Shown piece after piece: positions 42,079 to 51,204 of a stretch of DNA of 64,000 nucleotides. Every line of letters begins with the position of its first letter. The first letter of the stretch is position 1. The position numbers and the translations under genes were made by a program. The notes beneath the pieces were generated by a model that saw nothing but the letters and a program-made list of their open reading frames with translations, had not been told where the DNA came from and did not search any database. This DNA is from Candidatus Dependentiae bacterium (GTDB lineage: Bacteria > Babelota > Babeliae > Babelales > JACPOV01), in NCBI GenBank assembly GCA_016191325.1, contig JACPOV010000008.1, forward strand, positions 124,001 to 188,000, read 5' to 3'.

Positions 42079-42708
42079 TTATTTTTTTGAAAATCGATCC
42101 GGCTGAATAATGCCGCCAGAAATAATAAGGCTCATCGCTTCTTGCCGCGAAAGATCTACCGTGCGTAATTCTTGTTCAGGAACTGCAATAAGAAATCCGG
42201 TGGTCGGGTTCGGTGTTGTTGGAATAAATACTTTGTAAAAACGCTGTGCTTTGTTGGGGCTAATTTCTGCTGGAACTTCGCTTGTTAAAAATCCAATGCT
42301 GTAGACGCCAGCGCGAGGAAATTCAACCATCACCACATTTTGAAAGGTCAATTTATCTTGGCCGGTGAATGCTTGAACTAATTGCTTAATTCCAGAATAG
42401 ACAGGATTAAAAAGTGGAACGCGTGCAACGATCGATTCTAAAAAATGTAAAAAACTCTTTAGGAAAAAAAGTTTAAAAATTGCACCGACAAGTAAAATAA
42501 GCAAGAATACAAGAATAATTTCTGAATGCGGAATCGATTGCAGATACGCAGGCTCCACTCGATAAATCGGCGCCAGCCATCCTTTAAGTAATCGGAAAGC
42601 GACATTAAACACCGCAATCGTGAGCGTTATTGGTAGTAAAACTAACAATCCATTAAAGAAAATCGATTTAAAAAAATCGAATAAATGAGTAATGAACGAT
42701 TTTTCCAT
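42079..42708 (-). CDS. DUF502 family integral membrane protein
   Basis: 209 residues. Two membrane spans (FNGLLVLLPITLTIAVFNVAF near 18-38 and EIILVFLLILLVGAIFKLFFL near 62-83) and the characteristic DUF502 core: 'VPLFNPVYSGIKQLVQAF', 'VVMVEFPRAGVYSIGFLT', 'VFIPTTPNPTTGFLIAVP'. The family is widespread and uncharacterised, and its members are often found near cell-envelope genes. It follows glmM on the same strand, with a 66-base gap. Confidence 0.9.
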   Translation of the reverse strand: MEKSFITHLFDFFKSIFFNGLLVLLPITLTIAVFNVAFRLLKGWLAPIYRVEPAYLQSIPHSEIILVFLLILLVGAIFKLFFLKSFLHFLESIVARVPLFNPVYSGIKQLVQAFTGQDKLTFQNVVMVEFPRAGVYSIGFLTSEVPAEISPNKAQRFYKVFIPTTPNPTTGFLIAVPEQELRTVDLSRQEAMSLIISGGIIQPDRFSKK

Positions 42709-42774: not shown

Positions 42775-44091
42775 TTATGAAATTTCTTTTTGCAGCGTTT
42801 GTGATAACAGTCTACCAAGGGTTTGTGCATGATCGCAATCATCATCCTCGATCATTATGCGTAAAAGTGGCTCTGTTCCTGAGTAGCGGACTAAAATTCT
42901 TCCGTTGTGTAATTGACTCGTTGTGTGTTCAATAATATCTCGCAATGGCGGCTCAGATAAATCGCGGCGATTCTTTACGGGAATATTAATAATAATTTGA
43001 GGAAATTTCGTGAACGTATTCATTTCCCAATTTTGCGAATGAATAACCGATTGTGCAACGCGCAATGCAGTAAATATGCCGTCACCGGTAGGTAAATAGT
43101 CGTTCAAAATAATATGGCCCGATGGTTCTCCTCCTAGAAGAAGTTTTCGTGCTGTTAATTGCTCTGCAATATACTTATCGCCAACCGGGGTGCGTAACAA
43201 TTCGATAGAACGTTCTTTGAGATACACTTCAAAGCCTTGATTGGTCATGACGGTGCCAACTACCATTTTTGTTTTTTTATAGAGCGGATGGCTTAAAATG
43301 AGCGCTAAGATGTCATCACCATTTTTTAACTGGCCGTACATATTTACCGCCATCACGCGATCTCCATCTCCATCAAAAGCAAATCCCATATCGGCTTGAT
43401 GATCGACAACTGCTTTTTGAACTGCTTGCGTATGCAATGCGCCGCATTGTTTATTAATATTAACGCCGTTCGGGTGATCAAATAGGGTAATCACCTGCGC
43501 GCCAAGTGCGCTAAAAATCGCAGGTGCTATCGCTGAAGCGGCACCATGCGCGCAATCAAGAATAATTTTTTTCCCTGCAAGAAGTGATGCATCAAAATGC
43601 TGTGTAATTATCGATTGATATTCTTGAATAGCGTTATTCATCATGTACTGCGTGCCAAGCGCTGAGTAATTAAATTCTTTTGGTGCAACAATGAGTTCAG
43701 AAAGCGCTTTTTCATCAGCAGCGGTTAGTTTCCCGGTTGTTGCATCAATAATTTTAATGCCATTATCATAATAGGGATTATGCGAAGCTGAGATCATAAT
43801 GGCCGCATCAAATTGTTGCTGTTTGCGCATAAGCGCGAGGACCGCGGGGCTTGTAAGCACATGTGCATCATGCACCGCGATAGGATGCAAAAATAAACCA
43901 CTTTTGATCACCGATTTAACGAGCGAACAGGAAATGCGCGTATCGTGCGCAAGCAAAAGCGTAGGCGTCGGGCCATAGCGCTGCACTGCCCACGCGCCAA
44001 GTGCGTAACCGATCGATAATAACGTTTCGACCGTAAACGGTTCATCTCCTACTTTCGCGCGAATGCCATCGGTGCCAAAAAATGAGTTCAT
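42775..44091 (-). CDS. glmM: phosphoglucosamine mutase
   Basis: 438 residues, the normal length. GlmM interconverts glucosamine-6- and -1-phosphate for UDP-GlcNAc, the substrate of MurA. The phosphoserine loop is 'MISASHNPYYDNGIKI' (phosphoserine about S103), the metal loop is 'DGDGDRVM', the sugar-binding loop is 'GGEPSGHI', and the phosphate-binding loop is 'RYSGTEPLLRIM'. It overlaps the cdaR-like gene by four bases, as in the cdaA-cdaR-glmM operons of other bacteria. Confidence 0.97.
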   Translation of the reverse strand: MNSFFGTDGIRAKVGDEPFTVETLLSIGYALGAWAVQRYGPTPTLLLAHDTRISCSLVKSVIKSGLFLHPIAVHDAHVLTSPAVLALMRKQQQFDAAIMISASHNPYYDNGIKIIDATTGKLTAADEKALSELIVAPKEFNYSALGTQYMMNNAIQEYQSIITQHFDASLLAGKKIILDCAHGAASAIAPAIFSALGAQVITLFDHPNGVNINKQCGALHTQAVQKAVVDHQADMGFAFDGDGDRVMAVNMYGQLKNGDDILALILSHPLYKKTKMVVGTVMTNQGFEVYLKERSIELLRTPVGDKYIAEQLTARKLLLGGEPSGHIILNDYLPTGDGIFTALRVAQSVIHSQNWEMNTFTKFPQIIINIPVKNRRDLSEPPLRDIIEHTTSQLHNGRILVRYSGTEPLLRIMIEDDDCDHAQTLGRLLSQTLQKEIS

Positions 44092-44483
44092 GCTGGTTGT
44101 TCCTGTGCGCTGACATTTACCGAAATTAATGATGGAGAACAGTGTAGCAGTTTAACTTCATCTGGTACAAAAAAATTATCTTGTGTAATGGCAATATGAT
44201 GTGTGCCGATAGCAAGATCGCGAGCACTTAAATGAATTGCATCAAAATGTGCCGCCGTTTTTTTTAAAACATTTCTTTTTGCAGCGATCGTAAGCGTAAT
44301 CGATTGCGGCGCCTGCACATTAATTCCTTCAGGAATATCAAACCATGCAATTGGCATAGTGATTGATTGCTCGATCATGTGCGATTGGCTTAAAAGATAC
44401 CAAAAGGCATATCCGGTGAGCAGAGAAAATGTTTTAAGAACGAGGTTGCTCGTGAACGCCTGTTTTATCTGAACGAATTTCAT
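44088..44483 (-). CDS. CdaR/YbbR-like protein
   Basis: 131 residues from the ATG at 44483, preceded by 'aaggagatttat'; the frame is open from 44519. One N-terminal membrane span (LVLKTFSLLTGYAFWYLLSQS) and a single extracytoplasmic YbbR-type beta domain ('IAWFDIPEGINVQAPQSITLTIAAKRNVLKK'). Known CdaR proteins carry several such repeats and modulate the diadenylate cyclase CdaA; this one has room for a single repeat. Assignment rests on position between a cdaA-like gene and glmM plus topology. Confidence 0.7.
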   Translation of the reverse strand: MKFVQIKQAFTSNLVLKTFSLLTGYAFWYLLSQSHMIEQSITMPIAWFDIPEGINVQAPQSITLTIAAKRNVLKKTAAHFDAIHLSARDLAIGTHHIAITQDNFFVPDEVKLLHCSPSLISVNVSAQEQPA

Positions 44484-45294
44484 ATAAATCTCCTTGAACT
44501 TTATGTGCCGTGTGAACAATGCTCAGTTGTTGCTTCAAAAACAAATGAGCTTGTTTAGTAGTTAATTGTTCCATCACCGATCCGTTTGCTACGACGATGC
44601 ATCCTGCAGATGCTGGTTGCATAATAAGTACTAATGCGTCTGTTTTTTGCGTCAGCATTTCCGCGCTAGCAATAAAATGATGAATATCATGCGTATTAGC
44701 TGTGCGCTGAATACTATGCGGATTGAATGATGCATTAATGCCAAAAAGTATGCCTGATTGAGAAATAAGCAATGCGCAGCTTTGATCAAACGAACTGCTT
44801 TCAACCATGAATGGTAAGAGTGATGGCTGCAGCGGCGCATTAATGTGCAGTTCACATTCAAGAAGCGGGTGCAGCGCATCTCGCTGCTCAATAATGCAAA
44901 AAAAAGATTTTCCAAGGGAGCGAGCATGAAGCGCAGCGCGCACTACTAAATCGATCCAATCATCGTGCGCCGAAGGCATGAGCGGTTGTGTTTTTTTAAA
45001 TGTGATGAGTTGTTTTTGCAGTGATTGTTGGTGCGCAAGCATTAAAAGCATTATGATGCCGGGGCTATAGAGCAAAATAAATGTCATAATCGTATCGAGT
45101 TGCGCGTACGCAGCAACCAACATTAAAACGCATGACGCAATAAAGGAAAAAAGAAGAGGCGACGATCGATCTTTTTTGAGCCACGTGCTGATGGAAAAAA
45201 TAATGGCGGCAAAAAAGAAAATCTCGAAAATATCCTTGAGGCAATAGATATTACTTTGATTAATAACCATAACCATGGTATGCCACATATTCAT
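44434..45294 (-). CDS. CdaA-like diadenylate cyclase homologue, motif-deficient
   Basis: 286 residues from the ATG at 45294, preceded by 'caggagtagca'. Three N-terminal membrane spans (about 23-38, 47-63 and 68-87) lead to a DAC-like domain (110-250). The alignment with CdaA is readable around 'TQKTDALVLIMQPASAGCIVVANGSV' (family: 'sDAxvivVSEExGxISxaxxG'), but the catalytic 'DGA' is 'DQS' (170-172) and the 'GTRHRAA' loop is 'RTANTHDIHHF' (197-207). Both motifs bind and align ATP in active cyclases, so c-di-AMP synthesis is unlikely. It overlaps the cdaR-like gene by 50 bases. Confidence 0.75.
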   Translation of the reverse strand: MNMWHTMVMVINQSNIYCLKDIFEIFFFAAIIFSISTWLKKDRSSPLLFSFIASCVLMLVAAYAQLDTIMTFILLYSPGIIMLLMLAHQQSLQKQLITFKKTQPLMPSAHDDWIDLVVRAALHARSLGKSFFCIIEQRDALHPLLECELHINAPLQPSLLPFMVESSSFDQSCALLISQSGILFGINASFNPHSIQRTANTHDIHHFIASAEMLTQKTDALVLIMQPASAGCIVVANGSVMEQLTTKQAHLFLKQQLSIVHTAHKVQGDLYEIRSDKTGVHEQPRS

Positions 45295-45509: not shown

Positions 45510-46625
45510 ATGAGCATCATCAGAAGTACACAAAAAAACGTTTTACTTACTATGTTTTTAATAGCAAGCACTATTAATGCGGAGTCGGCTGGGATGCCAA
45601 AATTAGAAACAGATGAATGGCTCAATAGATTTGATCATATTTTGAAAGATTTGCCGCAAGAGGAGTTATTGAGGGCGTTGGCTGAGAGGCAAAAATGGAA
45701 GACGGTCCAAGCTATCGCTAAAACTACGCAAACTCAAAAGCCGGAAGATAGCGAAGCGCATTATTATTCGCCAAAATTCCCGACCGAACTTTCAAATGAA
45801 GAAAAAAAGCTCGATGTCTATAAACGAATAGCAAAAAAATATATAGGTACATTACCATCACATGTTGAGGATCTGGTTTCGTACTTTAAATACCATAAAG
45901 AATGTGTGGACGAAAACGTTTCTATACATAATAAGTTGCTCTTACATGGCAAACCGGGCACGGGCAAAACGCATCTTGTTAAAGTACTTTCTCAAGAATT
46001 GCAAATTCCCCTCATATCGTTTTCAGCATCTTTTTTTGGGGACAAGTATATAGGTGAATCATCCAGAAAAATCCGGTGCGCGTTTGAAGCTGCAAAAAAA
46101 CTCAATCAGCCGGTTCTTGTTTTTATCGATGAGATTGACGCACTTGCGACTAAGAGAAAAGATAGCACCCATGAAGAGCATAGGGCTACGTTAATAACAT
46201 TGCTAACTGAACTGCAGGAGCTTCAAAATAATAAGAATATTTTTTTTATTGTGGCGACCAATGATTTGGAGGCATTAGATCCAGCAGTTAAAGATAGATT
46301 TTCAGGATCGGTGTGCGAGATCAAGGAATTGGATAAAGTTGAAAAGACAAAACTGTATCAAAAAGCTTTTTTAGATCGAGGAATGGAAATTGAGGAAGAA
46401 TTTGCGCAATGCTTAGCAGCTGTTACAGCTAAAGACTTTTCTAATCGAGATGTGGAATACATAGCGACGACAACGATTCTAAAGCGATTTTTAGATAGTA
46501 AGAAAAATCCTGAAGAATGCAAAAATAAGGGTCTGTGCTCTTACGCAAGAAAATCTATTGATTCGACCGGAAAAAAAGCAAGCTTTTATAATATTCTGAC
46601 GCAAACATATTGCGATGGAATATAA
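45510..46625 (+). CDS. exported AAA+ ATPase
   Basis: 371 residues. N-terminus MSIIRSTQKNVLLTMFLIASTINA is a signal peptide, followed by 'ESAGMPK'. After about 100 residues of helical linker comes one AAA+ module of the FtsH/katanin/spastin type: Walker A 'GKPGTGKT' (147-154), Walker B 'VFIDEID' (204-210), sensor 1 'VATND' (248-252) and an arginine finger candidate R263 in 'DPAVKDRF'. There is no protease domain or membrane span after the signal. If truly exported it must find ATP elsewhere, for example in a host cell. It ends in TAATG overlap with the toxin-like gene, so the two are translationally coupled and perhaps work together, for example in unfolding or delivering the effector. Confidence 0.87.
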   Translation: MSIIRSTQKNVLLTMFLIASTINAESAGMPKLETDEWLNRFDHILKDLPQEELLRALAERQKWKTVQAIAKTTQTQKPEDSEAHYYSPKFPTELSNEEKKLDVYKRIAKKYIGTLPSHVEDLVSYFKYHKECVDENVSIHNKLLLHGKPGTGKTHLVKVLSQELQIPLISFSASFFGDKYIGESSRKIRCAFEAAKKLNQPVLVFIDEIDALATKRKDSTHEEHRATLITLLTELQELQNNKNIFFIVATNDLEALDPAVKDRFSGSVCEIKELDKVEKTKLYQKAFLDRGMEIEEEFAQCLAAVTAKDFSNRDVEYIATTTILKRFLDSKKNPEECKNKGLCSYARKSIDSTGKKASFYNILTQTYCDGI

Positions 46626-48529
46626 TGAAATATATCTACAACAAAATAATTATTGTATTCTCGCTTTTTATTTACACTCTTGGAGCTGAAGAAAAAGGAA
46701 GCTGTGCTAACTTTAGTCAAACAGCATCAAATACTACTCAATCAAATCAGTCGACTACGGCAGCGGTTCAATCAAGCCAGGCCGCGGCGCTAGCAGCTCA
46801 ATCTCAACCGTCGTCCACTGATAAAAATAAAAACTATGGAAGTGATGATTCCGATTCATCTTCATCAGGGAAGGCTAATTCTAGCGGAAATTCCTACTCA
46901 GGCGTAATGGTGATGTGCAAAGCACAGAGTAGTAATTCCAAAGCAAATTATACAGCGATTGATAATTATATTGCGGATAAATATTGGAAAATCGCTGAAG
47001 AGAGAATTGCAGCGCGAAATGCTAGTGTTGCCTCAGCCAAAGCTGAAGCAAGTTCGTCGGCAAAATCGAAATATGAAGATTTGCTCGAGAGAGTTAGCAA
47101 TAGGCAAAGCAGCATCTCAAATAATCTTTTAAAGGATGTATATGGGGGCTACAAAAGTAATACATCTTACCGTAATGTTTTTTTCAAGTATATCGCTGCC
47201 GCCAGTGCTTCGAAAAATAGCAACGCGAAATCGCGGCATGAATCTGAACTAGTTAATAACAGTATCTCGCCGCAGGCCGCCTTCGAAATAGGTTATAAAG
47301 CGCTTGAGTTAGTGGACAAATACTGGCCAGTTATTAAAACCGGTGCGCAAGCAACTATTGCGGGTGCGGCGGTCGTTTATGGTACGAGCAAAAATAAACA
47401 GGACCACGCCTATAATTCTTATAATAAAAGTACCACATCGGTAAAGAGCGCGGCGCATACAGCATTGCGTACCTATAATCGAGATCACGGTTATAACGAT
47501 GCAAGTCTTTCGGTTACTGATAAGGTTGATAAGGTCTATACCGCATCTGAAATTCATGAATTGCGGGTCAAAGGGGTAGATTCACGCATATTGACTGTTG
47601 ATGCGCAAGGGAATCCTATCCTTGATGAATCATCTCCAATTTATCCAGTTCCTATGACGTTGAGCGATTTAGAACGGTCGAACCAATTATATCCCGGACC
47701 GAATGGTTTTACTTCGATCGCGCCTTATAGGAACGATGGCAATCCATATGGAGCGGTTTTTCCAAATCCCGATTATTTAAATAAACCATTTTTGTTTGGG
47801 GATCAAGTTTCAGCTCAACCAGTTGAGCCGCCAAAAAATGTAGATACGCAAATACAGCCAACTGCACAAAGTGATTCAGCTGTAAAACCAAATGAAGAAA
47901 GTATTCCGACTAAAGTAGAGCAAATTGGCGAAGTATCAAACGAACCGGATCAAGATGGAGAACAGGAGCAGTTGGAAGATACCAATGCTCGCAAGGTAAT
48001 TGAAAGTACTGCGCCACCCAAGAAGATGAAGATTTTGGTGCAAACAACAGTTGGGCATCAAAATCCAGCCAAAAAGAAAATAGATCCGCCAAGAAATGAG
48101 GATAGTGATAAACAAAAAGGAGGAGGTGGTGCTGCCGCAGGTGGCGGTGGAGGCAAGCCCCCTTGGGATGATGATTATGATTACCATAATTGGGAAAATA
48201 GGAAAAATAAAAACATATTTCGTATTTTAAACCGGGATAAAATTAAAGAATCCATTGCGCATAATACAACAAAGAATAGACTCCACCATTTTTTTGATAA
48301 AGAAGGGCATGGATTTTTTAAATTGTTTAATAACATCGGTGGCAAAAATGAAGATACGCAAAAAAAAATAGTTAATGATGTGATAAAAGAACTATTTGAG
48401 AGCGTAAAATTACCGGATGAGGGAAGATTTGATAATCTTCCGATTAATCTCATGGGAGAAACTATTTATGTGAGGGGCTTTGTCCAAGATGGGGTCATTA
48501 AGATTGGAACAATGTTTATTCCTAAATAA
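46625..48529 (+). CDS. large exported polymorphic-toxin-like protein
   Basis: 634 residues. The start ATG overlaps the previous stop (TAATG). Signal peptide MKYIYNKIIIVFSLFIYTLGA, then a Ser/Gln/Asn-rich low-complexity region (about 25-95), a helical middle, a Pro-rich part, a Gly run near 498-510, and a C-terminal module of about 100 residues beginning 'PPWDDD'. Within it 'LHHFFDKEGHGF' (near 552-563) and 'YVRGFVQDGVIKIGTMFIPK' at the very end resemble the compact RNase-like tips of bacterial polymorphic toxins. The next gene has immunity-protein character. The toxic activity is inferred from architecture and context, not shown. Confidence 0.7.
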   Translation: MKYIYNKIIIVFSLFIYTLGAEEKGSCANFSQTASNTTQSNQSTTAAVQSSQAAALAAQSQPSSTDKNKNYGSDDSDSSSSGKANSSGNSYSGVMVMCKAQSSNSKANYTAIDNYIADKYWKIAEERIAARNASVASAKAEASSSAKSKYEDLLERVSNRQSSISNNLLKDVYGGYKSNTSYRNVFFKYIAAASASKNSNAKSRHESELVNNSISPQAAFEIGYKALELVDKYWPVIKTGAQATIAGAAVVYGTSKNKQDHAYNSYNKSTTSVKSAAHTALRTYNRDHGYNDASLSVTDKVDKVYTASEIHELRVKGVDSRILTVDAQGNPILDESSPIYPVPMTLSDLERSNQLYPGPNGFTSIAPYRNDGNPYGAVFPNPDYLNKPFLFGDQVSAQPVEPPKNVDTQIQPTAQSDSAVKPNEESIPTKVEQIGEVSNEPDQDGEQEQLEDTNARKVIESTAPPKKMKILVQTTVGHQNPAKKKIDPPRNEDSDKQKGGGGAAAGGGGGKPPWDDDYDYHNWENRKNKNIFRILNRDKIKESIAHNTTKNRLHHFFDKEGHGFFKLFNNIGGKNEDTQKKIVNDVIKELFESVKLPDEGRFDNLPINLMGETIYVRGFVQDGVIKIGTMFIPK

Positions 48530-48531
48530 GA

Positions 48532-48900
48532 ATGATACTAATGAAAAAAGCTATTCCGTTCGAAGAATTTGAACAAGCAGTGATGTCTAAAATTATGGAG
48601 CGAGATAATTCCATAAATATTATATTACGAGAACAATATAATAGATCGCATGTGATAAGCCGCGACTTTACGGGGGTAGGTTTTTTTACGACTTTTGAAG
48701 TTGCCACAGAAGCATCGCGGATAACGGAACCAGTTCCGAATGCATATGGGGACGTCGAAGCTATTATTAATGGTATCGGCGGTTATGGGTTTATTCTGTT
48801 CATAAAAAACGGAACCATGAGCTTTCTTGAAGGATATACTTGGCGTGATGAGTGGCCGAAATTAATCAATAATTTTGTTTTAGTTCACTCCGATAAATAA
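48532..48900 (+). CDS. probable immunity protein
   Basis: 122 residues, beginning two bases after the toxin-like gene; an ATG three codons in (48541) is an alternative start. No signal peptide, so it stays in the cytoplasm. 'GVGFFTTFEVATEAS', 'GDVEAIINGIGGYGFILFIKNG' and 'LEGYTWRDEWP' match, from memory, a family of small proteins commonly encoded just downstream of polymorphic toxins. Its job would be to neutralise the preceding C-terminal tip. Confidence 0.65.
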   Translation: MILMKKAIPFEEFEQAVMSKIMERDNSINIILREQYNRSHVISRDFTGVGFFTTFEVATEASRITEPVPNAYGDVEAIINGIGGYGFILFIKNGTMSFLEGYTWRDEWPKLINNFVLVHSDK

Positions 48901-48940
48901 AAAGAAACCACTTGAAGAAGTAGGGAAAAGGGCGTGCTTT

Positions 48941-49183
48941 TTGGCGAATGCGACGAAGAGCAAAAAGCCAATTAATGGCCAAGAAGCATTGAATAATTCA
49001 TATTCTTACAGTGATAGTAGGGGTCGGATTGGAATAAGCAACGGGGAATTCGTTGTTTTAAGATACACCCAACCAAGAGTTTATCATGGATATGCAGTGC
49101 CGTGGGAGAAGTTAACAGATCCAATGAAAAATGCCCTAAAAAGCGCGGGAAAGGTCACTAGTCAAGGAAAGATCATCACATGA
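48941..49183 (+). CDS. orphan toxin tip (polymorphic toxin type 17-like)
   Basis: 80 residues from a TTG at 48941, but the frame is open back to 48884 with no ATG or GTG. The sequence 'KPINGQEALNNSYSYS', 'RIGISNGEFVVLRYT', 'VYHGYAVPWEKLTDPMKNALKSAG' resembles, from memory, C-terminal toxin domains of the type 17 polymorphic toxins. It lacks secretion and linker regions, so it looks like a detached tip cassette that could be recombined onto the larger toxin. A purine-rich 'gggaaaaggg' upstream might allow translation. Its stop overlaps the next start (ATGA). Confidence 0.6.
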   Translation: MANATKSKKPINGQEALNNSYSYSDSRGRIGISNGEFVVLRYTQPRVYHGYAVPWEKLTDPMKNALKSAGKVTSQGKIIT

Positions 49184-49767
49184 AGAAAGTAATTTCTATA
49201 TTTAAGATATCAGAAGATAGTTTTATAGAACTCTATTTTCCGGATCTAAGAAATAAGCAGAATTTCTATTGTGCGCCAACCAGCGCCTTGCATAAATTTG
49301 ATGAAGTAACCGCACAGCTAAACATAAATCATAAAACCATCCTTTTGCAAGAGGGCGAGCTTAGGGATATGATTTGGGTCCTTTATAGAAAGTTGCAAAG
49401 GGCGCAGCAAAAAACTTGCGAACTTCCGAATTGGATTGAGATTGGAGATTTTGTTCGTTGTTTAAACGAATCAGATAAGGATGACGCAGAGCAAAGATAT
49501 AAGGATATAGATTTCAGCAATTTTTGGTTATGGTCGATGGCTAGTGGGGCGCAATCGTTCGTATATACGCGAAATGGCAAAATATATTTAGAGGTTGGAT
49601 ATATCTATAAATGGCATAGTCGCGAGCGAAAGGATTCTGATACCGATTATATTCCATATGAAGAATTTATAAAAAACTACAAACCAATTTTGGTTCAAGA
49701 AATAACTCCTGAAATGGCACAAGAATGGTCTGCTCAGTGCGAATCTTTGATAAAGCAGATCGAATGA
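49180..49767 (+). CDS. probable immunity protein, paralogue of 50608 gene
   Basis: 195 residues, no signal peptide, starting in ATGA overlap with the orphan tip. It is paralogous to the gene at 50608-51204: both have a central 'FxxWSxxxGxxQxxxYTxxxKxYLE' block and nearly the same C-terminus ('DYIPYEEFIKNYKPILVQEITPEMAQEW'). The pairing with the orphan tip suggests it is the cognate immunity protein. No known domain is recognised. Confidence 0.6.
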   Translation: MKKVISIFKISEDSFIELYFPDLRNKQNFYCAPTSALHKFDEVTAQLNINHKTILLQEGELRDMIWVLYRKLQRAQQKTCELPNWIEIGDFVRCLNESDKDDAEQRYKDIDFSNFWLWSMASGAQSFVYTRNGKIYLEVGYIYKWHSRERKDSDTDYIPYEEFIKNYKPILVQEITPEMAQEWSAQCESLIKQIE

Positions 49768-49777
49768 GCTCATATAC

Positions 49778-50356
49778 ATGAACTGGAAAGAGAAATTAAA
49801 AAAATTAGAGTTTGCTAAAAATTGGGACGCAGCAATTGAGTTTATGCAAGGTGCAATTAGAGAAGACCCAAACAATATTGATAAATATCTCTTTATAAAT
49901 TACCTATTAATGAATTTATCAGTTGAAGAAGAATATGATAAAAGCAAGCAGAAATATTATAAGACTTTAGCAAAATGGTATTTCGATGAAGCATATTCAA
50001 AGTTTTATGAAAACCCCGAATTTTTGCATTTAACAGCAAAAACTGCGGTCATGAGCGAATGGTTCTTTGGAATAACCGATGATGACTATCGTAGAATGTT
50101 AGAAAAAGCGCATGATATAGAGCCTCAAAATCCTCTTTATCAAGAATCATACTTTTATGATCTTGAAAGTAAAAATCCCGAAAGCGATGAGCTTATCTCA
50201 TACGCAAAGATGATATTGAGTGTTAATTCTCCAATCAAAAAGCAATTGAGTAACAAAGGAGCTTTGGGCGAATATATAATGGAACTGCAACAGGGCTGGG
50301 CCCAGGATGTATTAAAGGTTGCCGATCGTTTAAAAAGACAGAAAAACCAAAATTGA
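49778..50356 (+). CDS. probable immunity protein, helical repeat type
   Basis: 192 residues, no signal peptide, no ribosome site of note. Helical throughout: 'NWDAAIEFMQGAIREDPNNIDKYLFINYLLMNLSVEEEYD' and 'MSEWFFGITDDDYRRMLEKAHDIEPQNPLYQESYFYDLES' are TPR-like pairs. I recall such proteins from other toxin/immunity islands, where they act as immunity proteins. It lies ten bases after the preceding gene. Confidence 0.6.
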   Translation: MNWKEKLKKLEFAKNWDAAIEFMQGAIREDPNNIDKYLFINYLLMNLSVEEEYDKSKQKYYKTLAKWYFDEAYSKFYENPEFLHLTAKTAVMSEWFFGITDDDYRRMLEKAHDIEPQNPLYQESYFYDLESKNPESDELISYAKMILSVNSPIKKQLSNKGALGEYIMELQQGWAQDVLKVADRLKRQKNQN

Positions 50357-50371
50357 GAACTGAAAATAAAC

Positions 50372-50581
50372 ATGCTAAACCAAATGCAAAATAAATTGAC
50401 AAACCTACAGGCATTTAATGCAATGCGAAAATTCTTAGAGCTTTATTATACACAAACAAGCTCAGATGACGTGGGCTCATTGCTAGACGATTTACAAATT
50501 CTAAAAGATGGTAAAACTGCTGACCCCGCTGCCTGGAATGATTGGATTGACTGTGTTGAAGAAATCTTGAAACGGGACTAG
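50372..50581 (+). CDS. small probable immunity protein
   Basis: 69 residues. 'LQAFNAMRKFLELYYTQTSSDDVGSLLDDLQ' and 'DGKTADPAAWNDWIDCVE' match, from memory, a very common small immunity-like family found after polymorphic toxins of many bacteria. No matching toxin tip is adjacent. It sits 15 bases after the previous gene. Confidence 0.65.
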   Translation: MLNQMQNKLTNLQAFNAMRKFLELYYTQTSSDDVGSLLDDLQILKDGKTADPAAWNDWIDCVEEILKRD

Positions 50582-50607
50582 GTGGTTTGTATAAGGTAAC
50601 GCTGAGA

Positions 50608-51204
50608 ATGAAAAAAGTGTTGTTAAACTTTGAGATTTCTAAAGAGAATCGAATTGAAGTGTTTTTTTCTGATGAAATAAATAAATTCAATTATTTTTAT
50701 GAGCCGAGTGAAAAATTACATGTATTTGATGAAGTAAATATTGCGCTTTACATGCAAAATAAGCAAATCATTTTGGCCGAAGATCCACTTCGAGATGGAG
50801 TTGAATCTTTATACAATCAATTAATCAGAGCGAAACAAGGTTTGATATCCCTTCCTAAAGGTATCAATATTGGGACATTATCATATCATATTAATGAATC
50901 AACATATTTATCAGAGCAGGTGGGTGGCAAGCGATTAATTAACTCAATGAATTTTTCTGTATGGTCATTGCCAGCCGGCAAAGCACAAACATACATGTAT
51001 ACTTCTCAAAATAAACTATATCTTGAAATAGGAGTTTTTTATAGGTGGCATTATATAGAGCGAACAGATGCTGACATTGATTATATTCCATATGAAGATT
51101 TTATAAAAAATTATAAACCGATTTTAGTTGATGAAGTAACTAATGAAATGGCTTCGAATTGGATGCAACAATGCGAATCATTATTGAAGCAGCTTGTATT
51201 ATAA
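50608..51204 (+). CDS. probable immunity protein, paralogue of 49180 gene
   Basis: 198 residues from the ATG at 50608; an in-frame TTG at 50587 gives 205. It shares 'RDxxxxLYxxLxRAxQ', 'NFSVWSLPAGKAQTYMYTSQNKLYLEIG' and 'DYIPYEDFIKNYKPILVDEV' with the 49180-49767 protein. Together the two genes bracket two other probable immunity genes, suggesting stepwise accumulation of spare immunity genes by duplication. Confidence 0.6.
   Translation: MKKVLLNFEISKENRIEVFFSDEINKFNYFYEPSEKLHVFDEVNIALYMQNKQIILAEDPLRDGVESLYNQLIRAKQGLISLPKGINIGTLSYHINESTYLSEQVGGKRLINSMNFSVWSLPAGKAQTYMYTSQNKLYLEIGVFYRWHYIERTDADIDYIPYEDFIKNYKPILVDEVTNEMASNWMQQCESLLKQLVL

Follow-up and report, generated by a model that had tools for sequence, protein, structure and literature searches.

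What keeps a CdaA-like protein in place once the motifs of a diadenylate cyclase are missing from it is the question raised by this locus. CdaA itself is known as an enzyme under the control of CdaR. The gene lies in a 64,000-nucleotide stretch of DNA (the window) taken from a 1.27 Mb genome that belongs to the parasitic phylum Dependentiae (TM6/Babeliales). A preliminary description had placed a CdaA homologue apparently without cyclase motifs at 44434-45294, in the order cdaA-cdaR-glmM. The coordinates are correct, with the gene encoded on the minus strand, and the order holds in the window, where cdaR encodes a single-YbbR protein and the operon continues to DUF502 (Table 1).

Table 1. Features of the pseudo-CdaA operon in the window.
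Feature	Position	Strand	Remarks
pseudo-CdaA gene (CdaA-like, DAC motifs lost)	44434..45294	-	286 aa; ATG at 45294, stop 44436-44434
N-terminal membrane part of pseudo-CdaA, residues 18-106	44977..45243	-	
Cytoplasmic DAC-fold domain, residues 107-255	44530..44976	-	without DGA or RHR
AAGGAG Shine-Dalgarno-like site of cdaR	44490..44495	-	in the 3' end of pseudo-cdaA
cdaR-like gene	44088..44483	-	131 aa; one membrane segment and one YbbR domain
glmM (phosphoglucosamine mutase)	42775..44091	-	start shares 4 nt with cdaR stop
DUF502 membrane protein gene	42079..42708	-	last in the conserved cluster

Elsewhere in the window, two paralogous proteins (49180-49767 and 50587-51204) share 48% identity, and a large low-complexity protein (46610-48529), apparently secreted, is encoded upstream of them; none of the three has a Pfam match. 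The layout of 46610-51204 is reminiscent of a putative polymorphic toxin or secreted effector that is followed by duplicated genes of an immunity-like kind. In the segment 53111-58020, four to five proteins that are alike and apparently secreted are encoded in a row; they look like beta-propellers, with a weak Pfam match of this kind in one case, and possibly form a tandem family.

Descent from CdaA and the fate of the catalytic motifs

Residues 19-249 of the window protein align with the NCBIfam CdaA model TIGR00159 (E 2.2e-8), although the score falls well short of the equivalog cut-off. The match to CdaA_N is weak (E 0.0084, under Pfam's cut-off), and the Pfam DAC model is not reached. TIGR00159 is matched individually by 48 of 63 relatives. 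A search of genome contigs with the single window protein gave no match. But for two records, the relatives recovered from named records are assigned to candidate division TM6, Candidatus Dependentiae or Candidatus Babeliales. A profile built from the 63 relatives aligns with full-length CdaA (structure 9g69) with E 2.7e-14 over positions 20-276, covering membrane and DAC parts, and also 16 further DAC-family chains. In the AlphaFold model of the window protein, the DAC part has pLDDT values mostly of 85-91, and the best PDB matches found by Foldseek are CdaA, DacA and CdaM chains (E 1.3e-8 to 2e-6, TM-score on target mostly 0.63-0.78). The profile match and the model bear out the earlier view that membrane part and DAC fold are kept. 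Homology over both parts, the DAC fold and, in the window, an operon with cdaR and glmM are the traits of the CdaA family, and the protein is a true CdaA homologue by descent.

The motifs of B. subtilis CdaA are D171GA and R203HR (PMC8573169). In the window protein the DGA region reads SFDQSCALLIS, and an ungapped count from the conserved D219 puts F207-I208-A209 at the RHR position; across the 66 aligned members of the family this position is mostly W-K-Q. Neither DGA nor RHR is present anywhere in any of the 66 members, the window protein included. The loss described for one protein therefore extends across the phylum, and displaced copies of the motifs elsewhere in the chain, which would have spoken against it, were not found. 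Active CdaA also has an SEE segment, which is likewise gone. With DGA, RHR and a Pfam DAC domain match over the curated cut-off all lacking, pseudo-CdaA is very probably no cyclase. Because the motifs are absent in every member, they had presumably disappeared already in the last common ancestor of the Dependentiae pseudo-CdaA proteins.

CdaR and GlmM as candidate partners

The phylum was surveyed with 101 Dependentiae genomes, 33 of which are <90% complete or >5% contaminated, in loose first-look searches that very divergent copies can escape. Pseudo-CdaA was found in 67 genomes (two thirds). A profile search detected CdaR, the partner that a CdaA-CdaR complex calls for, in the same 67 of 67 genomes and never in the remaining 34. 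When only genomes with a completeness of at least 90% are counted, the pair is complete in 50 and both proteins are absent in 18, without exception (Fisher p 8e-17, a value that ignores relatedness and overstates independence). Shared loss can also produce such co-occurrence of neighbouring genes, and cdaR lies immediately 3' of pseudo-cdaA at 64 of 66 loci. In the genus g9 (G010, G011 and G012), the two genes were not found adjacent, but both are retained; in G011, cdaA is located at 25 kb, while cdaR adjoins glmM at 41 kb. The CdaR-like proteins comprise about 130 residues with one membrane segment and one YbbR domain. PF07949 is matched by 7 of 31 members, and the family profile matches Listeria Lmo2119 (PDB 5hqh) with E 5.9e-6.

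Upstream of an intact glmM, 20 pair-less genomes contain unrelated genes and neither cdaA nor cdaR, which argues that the loss is real and that no divergent copies are hidden there. Weak profile matches in G055 and G057 (E 0.003; E 6.6e-5 with internal stops) were discarded. Presence and absence of the pair are both seen within the families f2 and f19 as well as between families, and joint loss of cdaA-cdaR therefore probably occurred several times. As a third of the phylum is without it, the pair is dispensable in some lineages. In many pair-less genomes (L116-L133, L135) a gene that looks by eye like a LysE-type transporter adjoins glmM on its upstream side and points the other way, a layout which suggests that those families share a single older rearrangement.

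At 63 of 64 loci the start of cdaR lies inside cdaA, in most cases 41-50 nt ahead of the cdaA stop (47 nt in the window), and most of the loci with an overlapping start carry a Shine-Dalgarno-like site for cdaR. Because both the start and this site are embedded in cdaA, the overlap implies putative translational coupling of the two genes. The last pseudo-cdaA codons contain the cdaR start and ribosome-binding site at 44481-44495 of the window and in the loci L001-L074. A conserved KG near the C-terminus of pseudo-CdaA coincides with the Shine-Dalgarno-like site, and part of this conservation may really be a nucleotide signal.

The preliminary description had suggested GlmM or CdaR as the partner for which the protein may be kept. 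The distribution of CdaR favours the second proposal, whereas GlmM is at most optional. A pseudo-DAC domain that binds GlmM, as a membrane anchor of precursor synthesis or as a restraint on the enzyme, would be in keeping with active CdaA, which contacts GlmM through its DAC domain (PMC8573169), and with the position of glmM about 275-450 nt downstream of pseudo-cdaA at most loci (glmM is within the fetched flank at 53 of 66). The presence of GlmM is, however, unrelated to that of pseudo-CdaA: it is missing in 8 of 50 genomes with and 3 of 18 without pseudo-CdaA (Fisher p = 1; genomes at least 90% complete), and it is retained in most genomes that lack cdaA-cdaR. Ten genomes keep the pair although an orthologous GlmM was not found (G039, G040, G042, G068, G069, G072, G074, G088, G098 and G099). 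These possess only a distant mutase paralogue, a phosphomannomutase-like protein that might stand in for GlmM as partner. At nine glmM-less loci, DUF502 comes immediately after cdaA-cdaR, which gives the impression that glmM was excised. Presence and absence of glmM require at least six changes on the module tree, a quick tree with weak deep branches that broadly follows the taxonomic families (15 family-label changes versus 38.9 in shuffles). As glmM has been lost repeatedly with the pair kept, and kept without the pair, gene content argues that GlmM is not what keeps pseudo-CdaA, and retention for GlmM binding is rather unlikely.

DUF502 is found in 81 of 101 genomes, beside glmM in many pair-less genomes and beside cdaR where glmM is absent. 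Its occurrence both with and without cdaA-cdaR sets it apart from the obligate pair; a literature search returned no functional paper on this membrane protein. In one genome (G065, 91% complete, MurA present), no copy of GlmM or of the mutase paralogue was detected.

Within the Dependentiae family alone, the membrane part of pseudo-CdaA is better conserved than the DAC part (mean 2.15 versus 1.78 bits per column). A search of viral contigs with an active CdaA, intended as a reference for conservation, yielded no match. Nearly invariant residues are E24, W38, P78, H88, Q93, W113, E136, G181 and D219. CdaR attaches to the membrane part of Firmicutes CdaA and GlmM to its DAC domain, and the C-terminal domain of CdaR is located outside the membrane (PMC8573169, PMC8316131). 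The conserved membrane part, the strict partnership with CdaR and the dispensable GlmM fit a retention of the contact between CdaR and the membrane part. Pseudo-CdaA is thus likely to be a catalytically dead, CdaA-derived pseudo-cyclase that is retained as part of a membrane complex with CdaR. In this two-protein complex it would be the membrane-embedded subunit and would bind the membrane segment of CdaR through its own membrane part, as active CdaA is reported to do. CdaR would read or contact the cell envelope with its periplasmic YbbR domain, and the DAC-fold domain would act as a cytoplasmic protein-binding or structural domain instead of an enzyme. The physical pseudo-CdaA-CdaR complex is inferred from the reported binding of CdaR via the membrane part of CdaA (PMC8573169, PMC8316131); the signalling direction and the cytoplasmic partner are inferences as well.

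c-di-AMP machinery, selection and the remaining alternatives

No DAC domain exceeds Pfam's cut-off in any of the 101 Dependentiae genomes, the host genome among them, while 11 of 14 control genomes are positive; a second DAC protein, for which the preliminary description proposed to search, is therefore not found over the cut-off. It had also suggested a check for phosphodiesterases and receptors. The c-di-AMP phosphodiesterase PgpH over the cut-off and the c-di-AMP riboswitch are each found in 0 of 101 genomes, and the host genome, the only one searched for DHH domains, contains none, which leaves no GdpP or DhhP there. RCK_C domains are capable of c-di-AMP binding in other bacteria and occur in 71 of 101 genomes, but their presence is not diagnostic because E. 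coli has them too. By these searches, Dependentiae appear to have lost the c-di-AMP machinery. A full-text literature search, with most subscription journals outside its coverage, returned nothing on Dependentiae with c-di-AMP and nothing on a diadenylate cyclase pseudoenzyme.

Pairwise dN/dS values, calculated from eight pairs of which one is saturated, are 0.05-0.13 for the membrane part and 0.07-0.14 for the DAC part in the pairs with measurable dS, and are close to those of cdaR. The open frames of pseudo-cdaA are similar in length throughout the phylum. Decay into a pseudogene is rejected on the basis of these low ratios and the intact frames.

The strong purifying selection and the kept DAC fold would also suit a nucleotide sensor, with a non-catalytic domain that still binds ATP, AMP or a cyclic dinucleotide and relays this to CdaR. 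The DGA and RHR positions, where the ligand is bound in active enzymes, are, however, not conserved as a new motif, apart from the frequent W-K-Q at RHR, which makes such a sensor improbable. A cyclase that is residual or altered and works with an atypical active site could invoke the conserved DAC-fold residues I135-E136 and D219, which are still there, but the catalytic regions are all altered and vary between members, and no known degrading enzyme or riboswitch accompanies the protein; this reading deserves very little credence. A decaying relic retained only for the cdaR ribosome-binding site in its 3' end, to which the coincident KG might point, is scarcely credible given the low dN/dS over the whole protein (0.05-0.14), the uniform frames and the persistence of pseudo-cdaA in genus g9 apart from cdaR.

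Retention of pseudo-CdaA as a CdaR subunit suggests that the CdaA-CdaR pair has a job that needs no signal molecule, and it is reasonable to think, as the preliminary description had proposed, that the scaffold role of the operon has been separated from signalling. A more specific and tentative version, possible though not the expected outcome, is c-di-AMP-free envelope signalling, in which CdaR would sense the wall from the periplasm and pseudo-CdaA would relay its state through the membrane to a cytoplasmic protein partner. If true, the core role of CdaA-CdaR would be scaffolding or transducing, and could be uncoupled from the second messenger. A phylum that keeps CdaA and CdaR under strong selection after the loss of the chemistry represents a natural experiment, which suggests that CdaA-CdaR functions without c-di-AMP and offers a clean system for finding that function.

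Comparison with known systems

Several YbbR domains are usual in Firmicutes CdaR. The Dependentiae protein encoded downstream of pseudo-CdaA is a homologue of CdaR/YbbR, as the match to Listeria Lmo2119 indicates, but unlike its Firmicutes counterpart it has a single YbbR domain in its short chain. Mycoplasma CdaM (DacM) is, like pseudo-CdaA, a reduced CdaA-type protein, and its structure 7dg0 is matched with a TM-score on target of 0.78; in contrast to CdaM, which is described as an active cyclase, the Dependentiae protein is without the motifs. With Firmicutes CdaA (DacA), pseudo-CdaA shares the membrane part, the DAC fold, the gene order cdaA-cdaR-glmM and the CdaR neighbour (PMC8573169). 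It differs in the missing DGA and RHR, in a DAC part that is less conserved than the membrane part, in the single-YbbR CdaR at its side and in a genomic setting in which no other c-di-AMP enzyme was found.
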